From NCBI RefSeq assembly GCF_002266435.3, contig NZ_CP029426.2, positions 4,804,001 to 4,868,000 of the forward strand: a DNA stretch of 64,000 nucleotides, given 5' to 3'. Below, piece after piece: positions 53,906-64,000 of this stretch. Positions within the stretch are counted from its first letter, which is position 1, and every line of letters starts with the position of its first letter. The notes below the pieces were generated by a model. It was not told the DNA's origin and searched no databases. It saw nothing but the letters and a program-made list of their open reading frames with translations. The translations under genes and the position numbers were made by a program. This DNA is from Bradyrhizobium amphicarpaeae (GTDB lineage Bacteria > Pseudomonadota > Alphaproteobacteria > Rhizobiales > Xanthobacteraceae).

Positions 53906-56188
53906 TTAGCGGAGCAGCTGCAGCACGCTCTGCTGCGACTGGTTGGCCAGCGACAGCGCGGAGACCGCGATCGACTGACGGGTCGACAGCGCCTGGCTGT
54001 TGGCCGCTTCGACGTTGGTGTCGGCCAGCGTCAGGTTGGACGAGCCGGTCTGCAGCACGTTGATCAGGTTCTTGTTGAAGTCCTGACGAACCTGCACGAT
54101 CGTGAGGTTCGAGCCCAGAGCCGAAGCTTCCGAACGCAGCGTGCTCGACGCCGAGTTCAGGTTGGTCAGCACCTTGTTGGTGGCAGCGTTGTCGATGAAG
54201 TCGACACCGCTGGTCAGCGCGGCGAGGCCCAGACCCTTCGAGTTGTAGGTCACGCCGGTGATGCTGAGGCTCGACTTGGCAGTTTCGTCGAACACCAGCT
54301 TGAGCTGGTCACCATTCAGCAGGTTGACGCCGTTGAACGAGGAGTCCTGGGCAGTCGAGTCGATCTGCTGGAGGATGTTGTTGTACTGGTTGACCAGGTT
54401 CGCACGCGAGGTCTGGGCAACGGTGTCCGCGACGGGGGTGGAAGCCGTCGAGAAGGTCAGCGCCGAAGTCAGCGTACCGCCAATCGAACCACCCGCGGCC
54501 GTCGATCCGATGGTCGAGGATGCGTAGTCGTTGGTGGTGGAGACCGTCAGCAGGCCGTTGGCGTCGATCGTCGCCGTCAGGTTGTTGGCCTGGAGCTTCG
54601 AGTTGAGCTGATCGAGCGTCTTGACCGTACCGTTGGTGCCGTCGCCGAAGGTGACGTTGGCCGCCGTTCCGCCGTTGAAGGAGGAGAAGGTCAAGGTCTT
54701 GCCGGTGAGGCCGCCGACGCCGGAGGTGCGCGCCGCGGTGAAGGCGGTCGCAGTCCCGGTGTTGCCGGCGAGGCCGAGCACGTTCAGCGCGTTGCCGGTG
54801 CCGGTGATCGACAGATCGGCATTGACGCCGGTCGAGATCTTGAGCTGGCCGGAAGCGTTGATCGACGAGTTGGTCTGGCCGGTGGCGGTCGCAAGCGTCG
54901 CGGTGCCGTTGGCGTTGACCGTCGCGGTCTGTACGCCGCTGGCAAGGTCGATCGCCTTCAGCACGTCGTTGACCGTGCCACCCTGCAGATAGACCGTCGA
55001 GTTGCCGGCGCCGTCGGTGAGGACGTTGCCGCTCGTGCCGAACCCGCTCGGAACGCTCGGAGCACCGGTCGAACCCGGGATCGGCGCGTTCTTGAAGGTG
55101 ATGACGTGACCGTCGACGTTCAGCGTCGAACCGTCCGCAATCGTCGCGCCAAGTGAACCCGAGCTCGAGGTCCGGGTAGCACTCACGGTGGCGTTGCCGC
55201 CGCCGACGGCCGACGTCAGACCGAGGGCATTGAGCAGATCGGCCTTACCGGTGACGTTCAGATCCGCACCCGTCGAGCTCTTCAGCGTGACGGCGCTTGC
55301 AGCGACGCTCGAGGCGGTCTGGCCGTTGCTCGTCGCGAGTGTCGCGGCACCCGACGTGATGGACACCGTCTTGACGCCGCTGGCGAGATCGATCGCGCTC
55401 AACAGATCGTTCACGGTCGCAGCCGGCGTGCCGGCGGTGCCGAGATAGACGGTGGTATTGCCGCTGCCGTCGGTGACGAGGTTGCCGCTGACGCCCGAGC
55501 CGGTCGGAACGGCGGTCGTCGCCGGAGCCGAGCCGCTGCGGAAGGTGATGGTCTTGCCGTTCACAGTCAGCGTGTCGCCGTCAGCGGGCTGGGCCACGCC
55601 GGCAAGGCCGGTCGCGGTGGTGCCGTTGGTGGCGATCAGGGTGATGGTGCCGGTCAGGGCCGTGGTGCCGCCGGCGCCGGTCGTCGCGGTGGTGCCGGTG
55701 AAGGAGCCGATGGTCGCGCCGAGCGTCGTGGTGCCGCTTGCCGCGGTGGTGCCGCCGGCCGCGCCGCTATACAGCACGTTGCTGCTGGCAGTCGCGCTGG
55801 CATAGGAGGTCGTGCCGCGCAGGTCGGCCGCCGTCGCACCGGAGATCGTGGTGGAGACGTTCGACTTGGTGGAGTAACCGACAGTGGTCTGCAGCGCCTG
55901 GTTGGCGATCGACTTGGCGCTGTCGATCAGCTTCTGCAGCGAGGTGATGCCGGTGTTGGCAGCCTGCAGCACCTGCACGCCGTTGGCGATGCCGTCGAGC
56001 AGGTTGTTGATGTCGCTGGCGCGGTTGTCGAGCGACTGGGCGGTGAAGAAGTTGGTGGGATTGTCGAGAGCAGAATTGACGCTCTTGCCGGTCGAAAGAC
56101 GGCTTTGGGTGGTGGCGAGAAGATCAGCAGTGGACTGGAGGGAAAGCAGGTTCTGACGAACCGATGAAGAGAGAACGATACCGGACAT
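53906..56188 (-). CDS. fliC: Flagellin 3 (large thick-filament type)
   Basis: 760 residues. Starts MSGIVLSSSVRQNLLSLQST. It is nearly identical to flagellin 4 through most of its length, including the whole variable centre (for example SSVAASAVTLKSSTGADLNV and SVPSGFGTSGNVLTDGAGNS in both), with scattered changes mainly near the last third (QQIDSTAQDSSFNG, DETAKSSLSITG). Ribosome site AGAAGGGT. The near identity implies recent duplication or gene conversion. Flagellin subunit of the thick filament. Confidence 0.95.
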   Translation of the reverse strand: MSGIVLSSSVRQNLLSLQSTADLLATTQSRLSTGKSVNSALDNPTNFFTAQSLDNRASDINNLLDGIANGVQVLQAANTGITSLQKLIDSAKSIANQALQTTVGYSTKSNVSTTISGATAADLRGTTSYASATASSNVLYSGAAGGTTAASGTTTLGATIGSFTGTTATTGAGGTTALTGTITLIATNGTTATGLAGVAQPADGDTLTVNGKTITFRSGSAPATTAVPTGSGVSGNLVTDGSGNTTVYLGTAGTPAATVNDLLSAIDLASGVKTVSITSGAATLATSNGQTASSVAASAVTLKSSTGADLNVTGKADLLNALGLTSAVGGGNATVSATRTSSSGSLGATIADGSTLNVDGHVITFKNAPIPGSTGAPSVPSGFGTSGNVLTDGAGNSTVYLQGGTVNDVLKAIDLASGVQTATVNANGTATLATATGQTNSSINASGQLKISTGVNADLSITGTGNALNVLGLAGNTGTATAFTAARTSGVGGLTGKTLTFSSFNGGTAANVTFGDGTNGTVKTLDQLNSKLQANNLTATIDANGLLTVSTTNDYASSTIGSTAAGGSIGGTLTSALTFSTASTPVADTVAQTSRANLVNQYNNILQQIDSTAQDSSFNGVNLLNGDQLKLVFDETAKSSLSITGVTYNSKGLGLAALTSGVDFIDNAATNKVLTNLNSASSTLRSEASALGSNLTIVQVRQDFNKNLINVLQTGSSNLTLADTNVEAANSQALSTRQSIAVSALSLANQSQQSVLQLLR

Positions 56189-56546: not shown

Positions 56547-58829
56547 TTAGCGGAGCAGCTGCAGCACGCTCTGCTGCGACTGGTTGGCCAGCGACAGCGC
56601 GGAGACCGCGATCGACTGACGGGTCGACAGCGCCTGGCTGTTGGCCGCTTCCGTGTTGGTGTCGGCCAGCGTCAGGTTGGACGAACCGGTCTGCAGCACG
56701 TTGATCAGGCTCTTGTTGAAGTCCTGACGAACCTGCACCACCGAGAGGTTCGAGCCGAGGCTCGAAGCTTCCGAACGCAGCGTGCTCGAAGCCGCGTTCA
56801 GGTTCGACAGCACCTTGTTGGTCGCGGAGTTGTCGATGAAGTCGACGCCGCTGGTCAACGCGGCGAGACCCAGACCCTTGGAGTTGTAGGTCACGCCGGT
56901 GATGCTGAGGTTCGACTTGCCGGTCTCGTCGAACACCAGCTTGAGCTGGTCACCGTTCAGCAGGTTGACGCCGTTGAACGAGGAGTCCTGCGAGGTCGTG
57001 TCGATCTGGTTCAGGATGTTGTTGTACTGGCTGACCAGGTTCGCACGCGAAGTCTGGGCAACAGTGTCCTGGACGGGGGTGGAAGCCGTCGAGAAGGTCA
57101 GCGACGAGGTCAGCGTGCCGCCGATCGAACCACCTGCAGCGCTCGATCCGATGGTCGAGGACGCGTAGTCGTTGGTGGTGGAGACCGTCAGCAGGCCGTT
57201 GGCGTCGATCGTCGCCGTCAGGTTGTTGGCCTGAAGCTTGGTGTTGAGCTGATCGAGCGTCTTGACCGTGCCGTTGGTGCCGTCGCCGAAGGTGACGTTG
57301 ACCGCCGTGCCGCCGTTGAAGGAGGAGAAGGTCAAAGTCTTGCCGGAGATGCCGCCGATGCCGGAGGTGCGGGCCGCCGAGAACGCGGTCGCAGTCCCGG
57401 TGTTGCCGGCGAGGCCGAGCACGTTCAGCGCGTTGCCGGTGCCGGTGATCGACAGATCGGCATTGACGCCGGTCGAGATCTTGAGCTGGCCGGAAGCGTT
57501 GATCGACGAGTTGGTCTGGCCGGTGGCGGTCGCGAGCGTCGCGGTGCCGTTGGCGTTGACCGTCGCGGTCTGCACGCCGGTGGCGAGGTCGATCGCCTTC
57601 AGCACGTCGTTGACCGTGCCACCCTGCAGATAGACCGTCGAGTTGCCGGCGCCGTCGGTGAGGACGTTGCCGCTCGTGCCGAACCCGCTCGGAACGCTCG
57701 GAGCACCGGTCGAACCCGGGATCGGCGCGTTCTTGAAGGTGATGACGTGACCGTCGACGTTCAGCGTCGAACCGTCCGCAATCGTCGCACCCAGCGAAGC
57801 CGAGCTCGAGGTCCGGGTAGCACTCACGGTGGCGTTGCCGCCGCCGACGGCCGACGTCAGACCGAGGGCATTGAGCAGATCGGCCTTACCGGTGACGCTG
57901 AGATCCGCACCCGTTGAGCTCTTCAGCGTGACGGCGCTCGCAGCGACGCTGGAGGCGGTCTGGCCGTTGCTCGTCGCGAGTGTCGCGGCACCCGCAGTGA
58001 TGGACACCGTCTTGACGCCGCTGGCGAGATCGATCGCGCTCAACAGATCGTTCACGGTCGCAGCCGGCGTGCCGGCGGTGCCGAGATAAACGGTGCTGTT
58101 GCCGCTGCCGTCGGTGACGATGTTGCCGCTGACGCCCGAGCCGGTCGGAACGGCAGTCGTCGCCGGAGCCGAGCCGCTGCGGAAGGTGATGGTCTTGCCG
58201 TTGACAGTCAGCGTGTCGCCGTCAGCGGGCTGGGCCACGCCGGCAAGGCCGGTCGCGGTGGTGCCGTTGGTGGCGATCAGGGTGATGGTGCCGGTCAGGG
58301 CCGTGGTGCCGCCGGCGCCGGTCGTCGCGGTCGTGCCGGTGAAGGAGCCGATGGTGGCGCCGAGCGTCGTGGTGCCGCTTGCCGCAGTGGTGCCGCCGGC
58401 CGCGCCGCTGAACAGCACGTTGCTGCTGGCGGTGGCGCTGGCATAGGAGGTCGTGCCGCGCAGGTCGGCCGCCGTCGCACCCGAGATGGTGGCGGAGACG
58501 TTCGACTTGGTGGAGTAACCGACCGTGGTCTGCAGCGCCTGGTTGGCGATCGACTTGGCGCTGTCGATCAGCTTCTGCAGCGAGGTGATGCCGGTGTTGG
58601 CGGCCTGCAGCACCTGCACGCCGTTGGCGATGCCATCGAGCAGGTTGTTGATGTCGCTGGCGCGGTTGTCGAGCGACTGGGCGGTGAAGAAGTTGGTGGG
58701 ATTGTCCAGGGCCGAGTTGACGCTCTTGCCGGTCGACAGACGGTTCTGCGTGGTGGCGAGAAGATCAGCGGTGGACTGGAGGGAAAGCAGGTTCTGACGA
58801 ACCGACGAGGAGAGGACGATACCGGACAT
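56547..58829 (-). CDS. fliC: Flagellin 4 (large thick-filament type)
   Basis: 760 residues, first of the four in reading direction. D0/D1 ends as in its neighbours (MSGIVLSSSVRQNLLSLQST ... SLANQSQQSVLQLLR); the centre has the same repeated NGKTITFRSG, DGHVITFKNA and VTDGSGNSTVYL units. Nearly identical to flagellin 3. Ribosome site AGAAAGGT; the leader differs more from those of flagellins 2 and 3. Each gene of the array has its own leader and terminator, so the four are probably separate transcripts rather than one operon. Confidence 0.95.
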   Translation of the reverse strand: MSGIVLSSSVRQNLLSLQSTADLLATTQNRLSTGKSVNSALDNPTNFFTAQSLDNRASDINNLLDGIANGVQVLQAANTGITSLQKLIDSAKSIANQALQTTVGYSTKSNVSATISGATAADLRGTTSYASATASSNVLFSGAAGGTTAASGTTTLGATIGSFTGTTATTGAGGTTALTGTITLIATNGTTATGLAGVAQPADGDTLTVNGKTITFRSGSAPATTAVPTGSGVSGNIVTDGSGNSTVYLGTAGTPAATVNDLLSAIDLASGVKTVSITAGAATLATSNGQTASSVAASAVTLKSSTGADLSVTGKADLLNALGLTSAVGGGNATVSATRTSSSASLGATIADGSTLNVDGHVITFKNAPIPGSTGAPSVPSGFGTSGNVLTDGAGNSTVYLQGGTVNDVLKAIDLATGVQTATVNANGTATLATATGQTNSSINASGQLKISTGVNADLSITGTGNALNVLGLAGNTGTATAFSAARTSGIGGISGKTLTFSSFNGGTAVNVTFGDGTNGTVKTLDQLNTKLQANNLTATIDANGLLTVSTTNDYASSTIGSSAAGGSIGGTLTSSLTFSTASTPVQDTVAQTSRANLVSQYNNILNQIDTTSQDSSFNGVNLLNGDQLKLVFDETGKSNLSITGVTYNSKGLGLAALTSGVDFIDNSATNKVLSNLNAASSTLRSEASSLGSNLSVVQVRQDFNKSLINVLQTGSSNLTLADTNTEAANSQALSTRQSIAVSALSLANQSQQSVLQLLR

Positions 58830-59150: not shown

Positions 59151-59591
59151 ATGGCCCTCAAGGTCGAGCTCAGACCGCACGAACGCATCATCGTCGGTAA
59201 CTGCGTGATTACCAACACGGACCAGCGCGCCCGCCTCCTGATCGACGGCGACAACGTGCCGATCCTGCGCGAGCGCGACATCCTCACGCCGGAGACCGCG
59301 GATTCGCCTGCGAAGCTCGTCTATCTGGCGGTCCAGCTCATGTACATCTCGCCGGATCCGCAGAGCCAGCACGGCACCTATTTCAACCTGGTGCGCGACA
59401 TCGTCACCGCGGTGCCGAGTGCCTGGCCGATCATCGAAGGCATCAACAACAACATCCTGAACGGCGACCTCTACCGGGCGCTGAAGGACGCCCGCAAGCT
59501 GATCGCCTATGAAGAGAAGCTGCGAAGCCAATTCGAGGCCACCCACCCCCTGGCGGAAGCGCCCAACGCCGACGTCAGCTCCGCCGCCTGA
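59151..59591 (+). CDS. flbT: FlbT, flagellin mRNA regulator
   Basis: 146 residues. MALKVELRPHERIIVGNCVI then TNTDQRARLLIDGDNVPILR ERDIL and YLAVQLMYISPDPQSQHGTY are diagnostic for FlbT. FlbT binds the 5' leader of flagellin mRNA and limits its translation until the hook is complete (Caulobacter). GGAG is 9 nt before the ATG at 59151; the longer open frame upstream covers the promoter. Divergent from flagellin 4, with flaF on the far side of the array. Confidence 0.95.
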   Translation: MALKVELRPHERIIVGNCVITNTDQRARLLIDGDNVPILRERDILTPETADSPAKLVYLAVQLMYISPDPQSQHGTYFNLVRDIVTAVPSAWPIIEGINNNILNGDLYRALKDARKLIAYEEKLRSQFEATHPLAEAPNADVSSAA

Positions 59592-59679: not shown

Positions 59680-61179
59680 CTATTGCGCTGCGAGCGGCGG
59701 TGCCTCGACCTCGATCATTCCGTCGCCGCACCGCCGGCCGCCGAACTCCAGCACCGCTCCGACCAGCGCATTGATGTCCGCCTCCTCGGTACGGTGATTG
59801 ACGATCGCGGCGCGGATCGCAAACCTGCCGCCCAGCGTCGTGCTCGCGGGCGCCGCTATTCCGGACTCCTGGATGTCGGCGACGATCTCGCGATTGACCG
59901 CATCATCGGCCCGGTAGCGGAAGCAGACGATGTTGAGATTGACCGGCGCCAGCAATTCCAGCCGCGGTTCGGCCAGAACGCGGGCCTCCAGATATTTCGC
60001 CAGCGCGCAGCTTCGCGTGATCGTCGCACCGAGCCGGTCGGTGCCGAATGTCTTCAGCGTAAACCACGTCTTCAGCGCACGGAAGCCGCGCGACAGATCG
60101 GGGCCGAGATCGCAGGGCCAGACCGCGCCCGCCGCAAGCCCCCTCGCCTCGCGGCGCAGATAGGCCGCGGGTTGCGCAAAGGCCTGCCGATGCTGCTCGC
60201 CGTCGCGCACCAGCAGGAAGCCGGCGTCGTAAGGCACCTGTCCCCATTTGTGGAAGTCGAGCGCAATGGAATCCGCGCGCTCGATGCCGCGGAGCAGCGG
60301 CGCGAGCTCAGGCGAGAAGATCGCGAGCGCGCCGAAAGCGCCGTCGACGTGAAACCAGATGCCCTCCTCGCGACACAGCTCCGCGATCGCCTCGAGGTCG
60401 TCGATCGCACCAATGTCCACCGTACCGGCAGACGCAACGACCAGGAACGGCTTGAAACCGATCTCGCGATCGACGGTGAGCTGTGCACGCAACGCGGCAA
60501 GGTCGATGCGATGACCGGCATCGACGCCGATCTTGCGCAGCGCATCGGTGCCGAGCCCGGCAATGTCCATCGCCCTGGACACGCAGCCATGCGCGGCCTG
60601 CGACGTATAGGCCGTCAGCACCGCGCCGTCATTGCCGATGCCGTGCTGCCGCGCCAGCGTCCCGAGCGCAGCACTACGCGCCACCAGCACCGCCATCAGA
60701 TTGGCCATCGACGTGCCCGTGACGAAGATGCCGCTCGCGCTGTCCGGAAACGCGAACAGCCGGCGCATCCAGTCGACGATCTGGCGCTCGACCTCGATCG
60801 GCATGTGGTCGCGTCCGCCGAGATTGGCGTTGAGGCCGGCCGCGAGCATCTCCGCGATCATGCCGACCGCGGTGCCGCCGCCATGCACCCAGCCCATGAA
60901 GCCCGGATGGACGTTGCCGGTCGCATAGGGCGCGACATGCTCGACGAATTCGCGATAGACCTCGGCGAGCTCGCTCGCCTCGTGTGGCACGTCCGCCTTG
61001 AAGGCCGCGCGGGTCGCATCGGGAATCGGTTGCCAGACCGGGCGCGCCCGAACGTTGGCGATGCCGTCGATCGCATCGTCGAGCATGCGATGGGCGAGCG
61101 CGCGAAAGTCGCTCCAGTCCTGCGGATCGAGCGAGGTGCGCGCGACGGAGCTGTGCGCGTTGCGGATGATCTCGTTCAT
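59680..61179 (-). CDS. PLP-dependent (aromatic) amino acid decarboxylase
   Basis: 499 residues, the size of group II PLP decarboxylases (aromatic amino acid, tyrosine, histidine, glutamate types). Visible: HPGFMGWVHGGGTAVGMIAE (91-110), FVTGTSMANLMAVLVAR near 152, HVDGAFGA at 277-284 whose Asp279 contacts the PLP ring, and the Schiff-base Lys311 in LDFHKWGQ. Predicted to remove CO2 from an L-amino acid to give an amine. GGGGAG is 9 nt before the ATG. It overlaps the ATP-grasp-like gene by 4 bp and is last in a coupled three-gene operon. Confidence 0.9.
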   Translation of the reverse strand: MNEIIRNAHSSVARTSLDPQDWSDFRALAHRMLDDAIDGIANVRARPVWQPIPDATRAAFKADVPHEASELAEVYREFVEHVAPYATGNVHPGFMGWVHGGGTAVGMIAEMLAAGLNANLGGRDHMPIEVERQIVDWMRRLFAFPDSASGIFVTGTSMANLMAVLVARSAALGTLARQHGIGNDGAVLTAYTSQAAHGCVSRAMDIAGLGTDALRKIGVDAGHRIDLAALRAQLTVDREIGFKPFLVVASAGTVDIGAIDDLEAIAELCREEGIWFHVDGAFGALAIFSPELAPLLRGIERADSIALDFHKWGQVPYDAGFLLVRDGEQHRQAFAQPAAYLRREARGLAAGAVWPCDLGPDLSRGFRALKTWFTLKTFGTDRLGATITRSCALAKYLEARVLAEPRLELLAPVNLNIVCFRYRADDAVNREIVADIQESGIAAPASTTLGGRFAIRAAIVNHRTEEADINALVGAVLEFGGRRCGDGMIEVEAPPLAAQ

Positions 61180-62429
61180 GTTGCACTCCCCGCGCCTGCG
61201 CCTGCGTGCCGCGACAGCATCGCCGAGAACGCCGCGAAGATCTTGCGCATCTGCGGCGGCTTGTACGGAAACACGTCGGGCGAATCCATGTTGTGCACGA
61301 CGGCGGTGTTGTCGGCTTCGAACACCAGCAGCTCGTTGCTCTGGTTCTCGGCGCAATCGACGATGAAATAATCGAGGCCGACGCGCCGGCTCATCTCATC
61401 GAGCGCGCTTCCGTGGCGCGCAGCGAAGGCGTGCTCGAAGTCGCGCATGAAGATCGCCTCTTCCGCACGCTTCTCCTCGCTGAACGCCATGTAGGCGTTG
61501 AGATACCAGATGTCCCAGCGGTCGGCGATCGCCATGTGGCAGGCGTAGGGTTTGCCGTCGACCATCGCGAGACGATATTTGCGGTAGAGCCCGTCGGGGC
61601 TCACGTAGTCGACGAAACGCGCGACGAAGAAATCCTGCTCATCACGCTCGGCAAGATAGGCCGCGATCGCCGCGGCATCGTCGAGCTTGGCGAGCCCGAC
61701 GCCGGCATGCGAGCCGCGCGGCCGCGCGATCATCGGAAAGCGCAATTCAGCCGCGATGTCACGGCAGGCGATCTGCCCTCGCGAAAGATCGGACAATTGC
61801 GCGCGCGTTGCGTGAATCGTCGCGGGAATGTCGAGACCCGGCACGCCGGCCAGCAGGCGGTGCAGCTTGTCGCGATCGAGGTTGCCGATGCGATCGGGAC
61901 GATTGAGCAGTGGCCGCGGCCAATGCGGCGCGACCCTCCCGATCGAAGCGAGCGCCTCGCGGCATTCCTCGGAATCGGATGCGACCACGATGGCAACGTC
62001 GTGCTCGGGCAAATCCTTTGGCAGACCGACGCCCTCGACCACGTAGAGCGTCAACAGCTCGATGTCAGAGCCTTCGAGCAGAAACTCGATCGGCGTGTTG
62101 CCGCCCATGTCGATGTCGGCTGCAAGCGCGAGCACGCGCAGGCCCGGCTTCGGAGCCGCGCTCGGCGTGCGAAACAATTGGTGGAAGGCCAGCACCTCCG
62201 ACTGGATCGCAAGCCCCTGTTCCTTGTCGCCGAGCAGCTGGGTGATCAACGACAGATCCAGCCCTTCGCCCGCGAGCGCCGTCCCCGCCGCGATCCGCGT
62301 CAGCAGCTGGTCGCGCAATGGATGCAGGTCGACACCTTCAAAGGCCTGGCGCGTCAGCTGCGCGAAGCCGATGCGATCGGCATAGTTCGCTGTTGTCATG
62401 CAAAGCGGCGCGGAAACCGGATGCTGCAT
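61176..62429 (-). CDS. ATP-grasp-like protein of unknown function
   Basis: 417 residues. The C-terminal ~200 resemble an ATP-grasp ligase: ELRFPMIARPRGSHAGVGLA (lysine-less P-loop-like segment), EQDFFVARFVDYVSPDGLYR (strand with acceptor-lid residues), KYRLAMVDGKPYACHMAIAD, and metal-binding-like DYFIVDCAENQSNELLVFEA DN. The N-terminal part (1-190) is unassigned. ATP-grasp enzymes form amide or peptide bonds from acyl phosphates. The start at 62429 has GAGG upstream and lies 1 nt after the stop of the upstream gene; it overlaps the decarboxylase gene at its end. An alternative ATG is at 62399. Confidence 0.72.
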   Translation of the reverse strand: MQHPVSAPLCMTTANYADRIGFAQLTRQAFEGVDLHPLRDQLLTRIAAGTALAGEGLDLSLITQLLGDKEQGLAIQSEVLAFHQLFRTPSAAPKPGLRVLALAADIDMGGNTPIEFLLEGSDIELLTLYVVEGVGLPKDLPEHDVAIVVASDSEECREALASIGRVAPHWPRPLLNRPDRIGNLDRDKLHRLLAGVPGLDIPATIHATRAQLSDLSRGQIACRDIAAELRFPMIARPRGSHAGVGLAKLDDAAAIAAYLAERDEQDFFVARFVDYVSPDGLYRKYRLAMVDGKPYACHMAIADRWDIWYLNAYMAFSEEKRAEEAIFMRDFEHAFAARHGSALDEMSRRVGLDYFIVDCAENQSNELLVFEADNTAVVHNMDSPDVFPYKPPQMRKIFAAFSAMLSRHAGAGAGSAT

Positions 62430-62430
62430 C

Positions 62431-64000
62431 TCAGACCTCGAGCGCGGAGTTTGCCGGTACGGCCGCGACCGCGCCACGGTCGAGCAGCAGTTCGATCTTG
62501 ACCAGGACATGGGCGATGCGATCGAGAATTTCCTGCACGTTGCGTTGCGCCTGCGCGATGTCGGGCGACCAGGCCTCGGTCACGAGCCGCGCGCCGACGC
62601 AGAGGCGCAGCACGGCCTGCGGCGCCTCGTCCTGCCGCTCCAGCCGTACCGGCTGGCCGACCAGGCAGCGCTGCACGGCGACTTGCCGGTCCGCAGCGCT
62701 GCCGCCGATCGCCTCGTTCATGTCAAGCGCCAGCGCCCGATGGACGGCCCCGGTCTCGGCGATGGAGACCGGCTTGCCGTCGCGCAGCAGGATGAACGGA
62801 AAGATCGTGGTTTGTGCAAATTCCTCATCATCCGCGCCGGCGGTCCCGATCGCGGATCGGACGGGGCGCAGCGACGGCGACAACGCGATCATGCTGTCGA
62901 TGCCGGCGGCAAGCTCGGCGAGCACCTTGGCGCGGAAAGCCCCGGGTACGGCGTAGTAGCGGCCGATCTCGGCCAGTGCCGCTTCCCAGCGCAGCCATTG
63001 ACCGAAGTTCGGACGGCGTTCGAAGCGCGAACGCAGCGCTGTCCAGGCCACCGGCCAATCGCAACGGCCGGCGTAATCGAAGATACCAGGCGCGATCCTC
63101 TCGACCCGGTCGAACGACCGCGAAAGGCCCTTCGGCACCAGCACGGCACCGCTGAAGGCAGGTCCACCGAAGAATTTCGAGCCAGACATCAGCACCATAT
63201 AGCCGCGGTCGAGATAGGAGCGCAGCCGGCGGCGGCCGAGCCGGGCCTGGCAGGCATCGACGACGATCTGGACCTTGCGCGGCCAGCGCCGCGCGATCTC
63301 GTCGAGACAGGCCTCGCTCGGTGCGCGCCAGCCTAGCTTCGATGCATCCATGATCTGGAGCAGCACGGGCGCGCCTCGCGCAATTGTGGCCTCGATCGCA
63401 CGCAGCACCGCGGCATCGATGTCCGCGCGCATCGCGATCCCGGGCGCGGCCCCGAGCAGCGGCAGCGTAACGCTGGCGCCGGCGAGCCCTGCGACCGCAC
63501 CGTCCTTGCGAACCGCAAGGCCGCTCGCCGTCATCGAGCTGAAATGGTGCCCGCGGGCGGTGTGGATCGTCCCGCTTCCGGTCTGGTCGGCGCCGACCAC
63601 GATCGTCACCGGCGGCGCCCCGAGCAACACACGCGCCAGGAACAAGGCGTGGAGCTGTGAATCCGTGCCGGAGGGCGAGAACACGATGTCGATGCGCGCA
63701 GCGAGCTGGAGATGGCCGCGCAGCTCGTCCCGCATGTCCTCGCAGCGCGCGTCGAAGGCGATCTCTACCTCGTCGAACAGGCATTTGTGCATCAGCTCTT
63801 CACGCGCCAGCGCGGCACGGTCGTAAGCCGCGTGCGAGATCGTCGATGCGGTCGAGGAGGCGAAATTCCAGATCTCCGGCGCCGGCGAAGCCGCACAGCC
63901 ATAGCCGTTGACGCGATCCCTGGCGTCGAGCGCCAGCCGCGGATCGCCGCCGGAGACGAGCAGCGTGTCCAATGGTGTGAAGAGATCGCGCAGGCGATAA
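62431..64000 (-). CDS. PLP-dependent transferase-like protein, 5' end cut off
   Basis: Partial: the frame stays open to the window edge (YRLRDLFTPLDTLLVSGGDP...), so the true start lies beyond 64000. At least 523 residues. Fold type I PLP enzyme features: VFSPSGTDSQLHALFLARVL (cofactor phosphate region), VQIVVDACQARLGRRRLRSY (Asp to PLP nitrogen), and VLMSGSKFFGGPAFSGAVLV where Lys in SGSKFF is the likely Schiff-base residue, as in aminotransferase class V/desulfurase-like proteins. The C-terminal ~120 residues lack clear similarity. First of the three coupled genes seen here. Confidence 0.75.
   Translation of the reverse strand, partial: YRLRDLFTPLDTLLVSGGDPRLALDARDRVNGYGCAASPAPEIWNFASSTASTISHAAYDRAALAREELMHKCLFDEVEIAFDARCEDMRDELRGHLQLAARIDIVFSPSGTDSQLHALFLARVLLGAPPVTIVVGADQTGSGTIHTARGHHFSSMTASGLAVRKDGAVAGLAGASVTLPLLGAAPGIAMRADIDAAVLRAIEATIARGAPVLLQIMDASKLGWRAPSEACLDEIARRWPRKVQIVVDACQARLGRRRLRSYLDRGYMVLMSGSKFFGGPAFSGAVLVPKGLSRSFDRVERIAPGIFDYAGRCDWPVAWTALRSRFERRPNFGQWLRWEAALAEIGRYYAVPGAFRAKVLAELAAGIDSMIALSPSLRPVRSAIGTAGADDEEFAQTTIFPFILLRDGKPVSIAETGAVHRALALDMNEAIGGSAADRQVAVQRCLVGQPVRLERQDEAPQAVLRLCVGARLVTEAWSPDIAQAQRNVQEILDRIAHVLVKIELLLDRGAVAAVPANSALEV

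Follow-up and report, generated by a model that had tools for sequence, protein, structure and literature searches.

The four-gene set and its locus

We analysed 64,000 nucleotides of Bradyrhizobium amphicarpaeae (positions 4804001-4868000 of a 7.03-Mb single-contig genome; this whole stretch is called the window below), which ends in a run of minus-strand genes encoding a pyridoxal 5'-phosphate (PLP)-dependent decarboxylase (PLPdec), an ATP-grasp protein (ATPg) and a second PLP enzyme (PLP1). Together with a putative glycosyltransferase gene (GT) next upstream, they form a four-gene set. This set is part of a flagellar locus, since flgL, flgK, and flgE lie beyond GT; downstream, the convergent flbT gene is followed by two genes for 760-aa flagellins.

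The original prediction, made from the letters of the window, described three coupled minus-strand genes with a 1-nt gap and a 4-nt overlap, in an operon continuing past the window end. The coordinates hold, with PLPdec and ATPg overlapping by 4 nt (ATGA) and a single nucleotide separating ATPg from PLP1, and the minus-strand run does continue through PLP1 to GT, flgL, flgK, and flgE. The gaps along the minus-strand run flgE-flgK-flgL-GT-PLP1-ATPg-PLPdec are 35, 21, 71, 10, 1, and -4 nt, where the 10-nt gap presumes a PLP1 start at 64059 and the names flgE, flgK, and flgL follow from by-eye sequence likeness and gene order. This spacing suggests that the set is one transcript; a promoter and terminator scan, which was uninformative, found none. 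Compared with six relatives, the four genes give 24 pairwise ratios of nonsynonymous to synonymous substitution rates (dN/dS), every one of them in the range 0.04-0.43, and all four look like working proteins.

Table 1. Genes of the set and flanking flagellar genes (window positions). The scan for flagellin and DUF1522 domains covered one of the two 760-aa flagellins.
Feature	Position	Strand	Basis and remarks
PLPdec, group II PLP-dependent amino acid decarboxylase	59680..61179	-	ATG start, 499 aa; PF00282, 218 bits
ATPg, ATP-grasp carboxylate-amine ligase-like protein; short N-terminal helical region, possibly tetratricopeptide repeat (TPR)-like	61176..62429	-	ATG start, 417 aa; AlphaFold and Foldseek
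PLP1, PLP fold type I enzyme	62431..64000, on past the window end	-	ATG start at 64059 (542 aa) or 64080 (549 aa)
GT, putative GT-A-like protein, next upstream of PLP1	64070-64846, beyond the window	-	258 aa; inferred, no family match
Flagellin with DUF1522 inserts, proposed target	53906..56188	-	760 aa; Flagellin_N, Flagellin_C, and DUF1522 matches
Second flagellin, proposed target	56547..58829	-	760 aa; same open reading frame length, very similar sequence; calculated mass 74.5 kDa
flbT, flanking marker, convergent with PLPdec (88-nt gap)	59151..59591	+	FlbT NCBIfam, 230 bits, cut-off 153

Predicted structures and enzyme classes

PLPdec is a group II PLP decarboxylase, its Pfam score being far above the cut-off of 27 bits, and the closest solved relative in a PDB profile search is the R. 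gnavus tryptophan decarboxylase (PDB ID 4obu; E 1.5e-91). Lys311, Asp279, and Tyr340 are invariant in 13/13 sequences, and we take their roles to be those given in the literature on aromatic amino acid decarboxylases (catalytic Lys, loop Tyr). Retention of the catalytic-loop tyrosine goes with decarboxylation and not with aldehyde synthesis, so that decarboxylation is the reaction expected here. We dropped the assignment of a substrate because the decarboxylases of Trp, 3,4-dihydroxyphenylalanine (DOPA), Tyr, diaminobutyrate, and lysine are all strong matches. PLPdec aligns over nearly its full length with both 4obu and the L-2,4-diaminobutyrate (DABA) decarboxylase RhbB, Lys311 and Tyr340 being kept, but it reaches only 182 bits against the NCBIfam DABA decarboxylase model (NF052646), far under the equivalog cut-off of 900, and no siderophore gene was noticed around it; a DABA decarboxylase in a siderophore pathway was rejected. 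A defence system was also rejected, the PADLOC search yielding only weak SspA/DndA matches to PLPdec, which we read as shared PLP-fold similarity.

The AlphaFold model of ATPg (predicted local distance difference test [pLDDT] score 89.8) shows an ATP-grasp fold, with 526 PDB matches in Foldseek at an E value of at most 0.001. The best of these are LysX/ArgX (E 1.5e-11), followed by Ddl and, lower, RimK, which ranks 35th. The identity to LysX/ArgX and RimK is only 13-22 %, with template modelling (TM) scores of 0.40-0.44 by query and 0.56-0.63 by target, and, unlike for LysX/ArgX, no LysW-like carrier gene was noticed beside the set, although no search was aimed at one. The residues H241-A-G243, K284, R286, D358, E371, and D373 are invariant in 23/23 sequences and include the conserved acidic and basic residues expected of ATP-grasp enzymes (K284, R286, D358, E371, and D373), which by analogy we presume to bind metal and ATP. 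There is no Pfam match at E values up to 10, including to the ATP-grasp_4 domain (Pfam ID PF13535) of the SfmE type. Residues 22-82 form four helices in the model and show a weak TPR match (profile E 0.015); the ATPg relative at a locus in another lineage (L054; L numbers denote loci and G numbers genomes) has weak matches to TPR proteins too.

More distant ATPg relatives at L056 and L061-L063 are fused to TPR repeats, giving proteins of about 490-620 aa (L061 by eye) in other contexts, and a PLP1-PLPdec pair is located some 3 kb away from the relative in L063. Genes for TPR-sulfotransferases (Pfam ID PF13469) directly adjoin ATPg in L044 (9344-12360) and L045 (6102-8992) and a TPR-ATP-grasp relative in L067 (4429-7822). 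The overlaps with the sulfotransferase genes, which depend on the start codon chosen, are 1, up to 28, and 11 nt, respectively, and fall in two families, suggesting a second ATP-grasp/sulfotransferase pair, which may modify proteins or glycans.

The PLP1 model (pLDDT 82.4, predicted TM score 0.86) resembles fold type I decarboxylases and lyases in Foldseek, with a best E value of 1.1e-11 at 10-17 % identity and modest TM scores of 0.40-0.50 by query over the listed matches. The predicted fold, together with the Asp/Lys pair D268/K295, places PLP1 among the PLP fold type I enzymes; S130-G-T-D133, D268, and S294-K295 are invariant in 13/13 sequences. Its sole Pfam match is DUF3022 at E 0.09-0.1. 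The three enzyme classes named by the original prediction are borne out, by the Pfam score for PLPdec and by AlphaFold and Foldseek for the other two, the ATP-grasp fold being seen in the 417-residue model as anticipated. The Pfam families it had put forward fare unevenly, as Pyridoxal_deC (PF00282) is recovered, while ATP-grasp and Aminotran_5 (PF00266) give no credible match. PLP1 and ATPg represent two enzyme groups without a credible match in Pfam or NCBIfam.

GT has no Pfam match, no credible NCBIfam match and nothing usable against the PDB; it matches PHROG 1574, a family whose function is not known. D76-x-D78 and E210-D211 are invariant in 10 sequences, which suggests a GT-A glycosyltransferase from these motifs rather than from a family match. 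Among the 95 loci examined (L002, L034-L043, L074-L153, and L218-L221), 37 hold a complete flagellin open reading frame by our filter, and a flagellin of at least 700 aa is found in 23/32 of these with GT versus 0/5 without it. This association is only a hint because relatedness was kept in and at least three genomes were entered twice (L035/L081, L036/L083, and L037/L097, whose contigs agree in length).

Conservation within Bradyrhizobium

ATPg is matched at E values of at most 0.001 in 38 of 397 sampled genomes of the order, 23 of them with close, nearly full-length relatives (at least 35 % identity), and PLP1 is present in 19. In a sample of 15 genomes of the same genus, 11 carry ATPg. We further took the best 80 of at least 570 confirmed ATPg relatives from public named genomes, which are not a broad sample, since Bradyrhizobium is named in 75 of the 80 titles. 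ATPg is flanked by flgL on one side and by flbT/flagellin on the other in 73 of the 80 loci, and 66 of them have the complete four-gene set. The seven exceptions are L108, L136, L140, and L148, where the stretch ends before one or both flanks, and three Rhodopseudomonas loci.

Among the four genus members without ATPg, flgL directly faces flbT in three (L218, L219, and L220), and flagellins lie between flgL and flbT in the fourth (L221), which lacks the whole set but has intact flagellin open reading frames. In L220 (8831-9628; G194), flbT is matched in two different frames and flagellin is reduced to a short fragment, so that the flagellar locus of this genome looks decayed. Neither PLP1 nor an intact GT accompanies ATPg-PLPdec in L042, L136, L137, and L144, L136 having a short GT-like remnant; PLP1 is absent from L036. 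Three Bradyrhizobium loci carry two ATPg copies (L141, L143, and L148), which in the latter two are separated by a TPR protein and a gene on the opposite strand. In L098, L116, and L129, the flagellin and flbT block is on the strand opposite to the usual arrangement.

Distribution outside the genus

The trio occurs as PLP1-ATPg-PLPdec in Bradyrhizobium and Rhodopseudomonas, as ATPg-PLP1-PLPdec in L046, L048, L051, and L053, and as PLPdec-ATPg-PLP1 in L049, L050, and L200. PLPdec lies in the fetched stretch around ATPg in 19 of the 23 close carriers, the others being L044, L045, L052, and L055. PLP1 is also present in G238 and G283, which have no close ATPg match.

Four further lineages link ATPg to flagellar loci. 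It lies beside flgEKL, flbT, and flagellin in L047 (G052); PLPdec-ATPg lies between flagellin genes in L054 (G396); and PLP1 and ATPg-PLPdec surround a flagellin and flbT in L201 (G456), which belongs to another order of the class. ATPg stands alone in L055 (G104), where it directly follows the gene of a FliI-type ATPase and has FlhB, FliG, FliN, and rod genes no more than 10 kb away. Linkage to such clusters is therefore seen in the genus and in these four lineages, and not in all carriers. Six changes of the flagellar label are required on the ATPg tree, five or more of which fall on well-supported branches, some rows with the label sitting on long branches of unsure placement. The chance of finding five of 14 lineages at flagellar loci is about 2e-7 to 6e-6 if flagellar genes are assumed to make up 1-2 % of a genome, where both inputs are estimates and the 14 lineages are our own count by family and genus.

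Flagellin is present in 23/23 close ATPg carriers versus 301/397 genomes of the order. We did not accept this co-occurrence as proof (Fisher p 0.002 overall and 0.04 outside the genus), relatives not being independent.

A probable role in filament modification

The four genes probably constitute a flagellar-filament modification module. Filament modification is the best reading because of the position of the set in a flagellar cluster, its recurrence in flagellar loci and its glycosyltransferase neighbours: a GT41 protein lies beside the L054 flagellins, and the two parts of the set in L143 are separated by an opposite-strand gene and by a TPR protein that matches Glyco_transf_9 over a short part (27.4 bits against a cut-off of 22). 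The nearest folds of ATPg, LysX/ArgX and RimK, belong to enzymes that modify proteins at carboxylates, and ATP-grasp genes in known flagellin-modification clusters provide precedents.

In such a module, an amine or amino-acid building block would likely be made, amide-coupled and attached to the filament, probably with a sugar. PLPdec would convert an amino acid into an amine by decarboxylation, and PLP1 would make or alter a second amino-acid-derived piece. ATPg would turn a carboxylate into an acyl phosphate and then form an amide bond to the amine, and GT, perhaps with general TPR-type glycosyltransferases, would attach this product, probably carried on a sugar, to the Ser/Thr-rich flagellins encoded next to the set. 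Substrates, reaction order, amide coupling, and flagellin as the target are what we infer. It is conceivable, if doubtful, that this represents a new protein-decoration chemistry, in which a TPR-recruited ATP-grasp ligase amide-couples a decarboxylated amino acid to flagellin or its glycan and PLP1, a fold type I enzyme not classified before, supplies the partner; if true, the set would be a movable one for the flagellins of several Alphaproteobacteria, and perhaps for other targets elsewhere.

The decoration of flagellins can be decisive for filament assembly, for swimming, and for recognition by hosts, and Bradyrhizobium includes the soybean symbionts. The set is present or absent at one site, and natural strains lack some or all of it, which makes the question of flagellin modification directly testable.

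Several observations weigh against a filament role. For the source strain, flagellin modification is read from gene context, and GT matches no named family. Homologues of GT41 and NeuB are encoded elsewhere in the source genome, where no MptE-like match was found, so that flagellin glycosylation may not depend on the set. Some Bradyrhizobium loci (e.g., L036, L042, and L137) lack PLP1, GT, or both, and in the Rhodopseudomonas loci L150, L151, and L153, PLP1-ATPg-PLPdec is placed elsewhere, with no flagellar genes seen nearby. The trio, or ATPg with PLPdec, likewise occurs without visible flagellar genes at L046, L048-L051, L053, L198, L200, and L202, and 9 of the 14 lineages have none in the stretch examined. 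These calls used five query proteins and a reading of open reading frame starts (for L051, L150, and L153, the queries alone) and can miss flagellar genes, as L055 shows. Since several lineages keep the trio in such places, the product could be a free metabolite or be used on targets other than flagellin. Even the flagellar loci outside the genus are incomplete: PLP1 was not found in G052 or G104 and lies on another contig in G396, the L055 stretch has no PLPdec match, and PLPdec and ATPg are convergent in L047 and do not form an operon. Because flagellin is common in the order, its co-occurrence with ATPg says little on its own.

The original prediction had proposed a small-molecule pathway, building an amino-acid-derived metabolite or signal, from a window that held the flagellins and flbT but not GT, flgL, flgK, and flgE, and had not considered filament modification. 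Its enzyme classes and coupling stand, and, as it required, relatives in Bradyrhizobium and in other lineages keep the genes together; the metabolite or signal gives way as the best reading, the flagellar placement (73/80 loci and four lineages) favouring filament modification. We retain it as a rival because the trio also occurs where no flagellar genes are seen. The trio would then make a free amino-acid-derived amide or amine, acting as a signal, an osmolyte, or an exported metabolite, and would merely be co-expressed with the flagellum in Bradyrhizobium. The pairing of a PLP decarboxylase with an ATP-grasp enzyme is classic small-molecule chemistry, and the three genes remain neighbours whatever their order, of which three are seen overall, including away from visible flagellar genes. 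We nevertheless regard a free product as unlikely, given the repeated placement in flagellar loci, the GT-like gene that comes first in the set and the absence of a transporter, nonribosomal peptide synthetase, or export gene among the four genes.

The standing of LysX/ArgX and, lower, RimK as the nearest folds of ATPg fits the alternative that ATPg acts directly on a protein in the manner of RimK or LysX. The N-terminus of ATPg would bind flagellin or a carrier protein, a carboxylate of which would then be conjugated with the amine or amino acid, and GT would be a separate modifier. The TPR similarity of the N-terminus, the several distant relatives that are TPR-ATP-grasp fusions and the adjoining TPR-sulfotransferase genes (L044, L045, and L067) fit this alternative. 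However, the TPR match is weak and has no counterpart in Pfam, and the flagellin contains just 3 Glu residues, albeit with 33 Asp, which leaves direct action on a protein an improbable explanation.

Comparison with known systems

No description of this set was found in the open-licence literature on Bradyrhizobium flagellin glycosylation, ATP-grasp proteins with flagellin, or decarboxylases with flagellar genes, nor one of whether or how the Bradyrhizobium thick flagellins are modified. The words glycosyl, decarboxylase, and aminotransferase are absent from the available part of PMC6406911, and no relevant term was found in PMC4431377 (a paper on a CDC123-type ATP-grasp protein) or PMC8585493. 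The accessible text of PMC4823718 puts the subpolar flagellins FliC1-4 at 68 kDa, compared with the 74.5 kDa calculated for the 760-aa flagellin of the window; the strains differ, and that text does not tie the 68 kDa to modification.

ATP-grasp genes in flagellin-modification clusters are already known, as with Shewanella sfmE, while we found no description of the gene combination of the ATPg set in this literature. In the excerpts available for Shewanella oneidensis, the last gene of sfmABCDE, sfmE, encodes a 412-aa ATP-grasp carboxylate-amine ligase-like protein that is needed for full flagellin modification, its deletion shifting the flagellin mass less than other sfm deletions do (PMC3765264). 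The two gene sets share an ATP-grasp ligase-like gene; as described there, sfm differs in lacking a PLP enzyme and in having genes for a NeuB-like protein, a thiamine pyrophosphate enzyme, a reductase, and a methyltransferase. SfmE, which could be compared by description only, is reported to have an ATP-grasp_4 domain, whereas ATPg has no such Pfam match.

The C. difficile type B locus for post-translational modification of flagellin likewise contains an ATP-grasp gene, CDR20291_0245, beside glycosyltransferases, with a role that is only proposed in the portion of the source available (PMC5207246). Its partners are different, being FemAB-like, ornithine cyclodeaminase-like, and FdtB-like, and its ATP-grasp protein belongs to PF13535. 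A TPR glycosyltransferase such as Caulobacter FlmG is not among the four genes, GT being a small GT-A-like protein. The likeness to FlmG lies in its TPR domain, which binds and recruits flagellins according to the part of the source available (PMC7591256), and in the GT41 protein beside the flagellins of L054.

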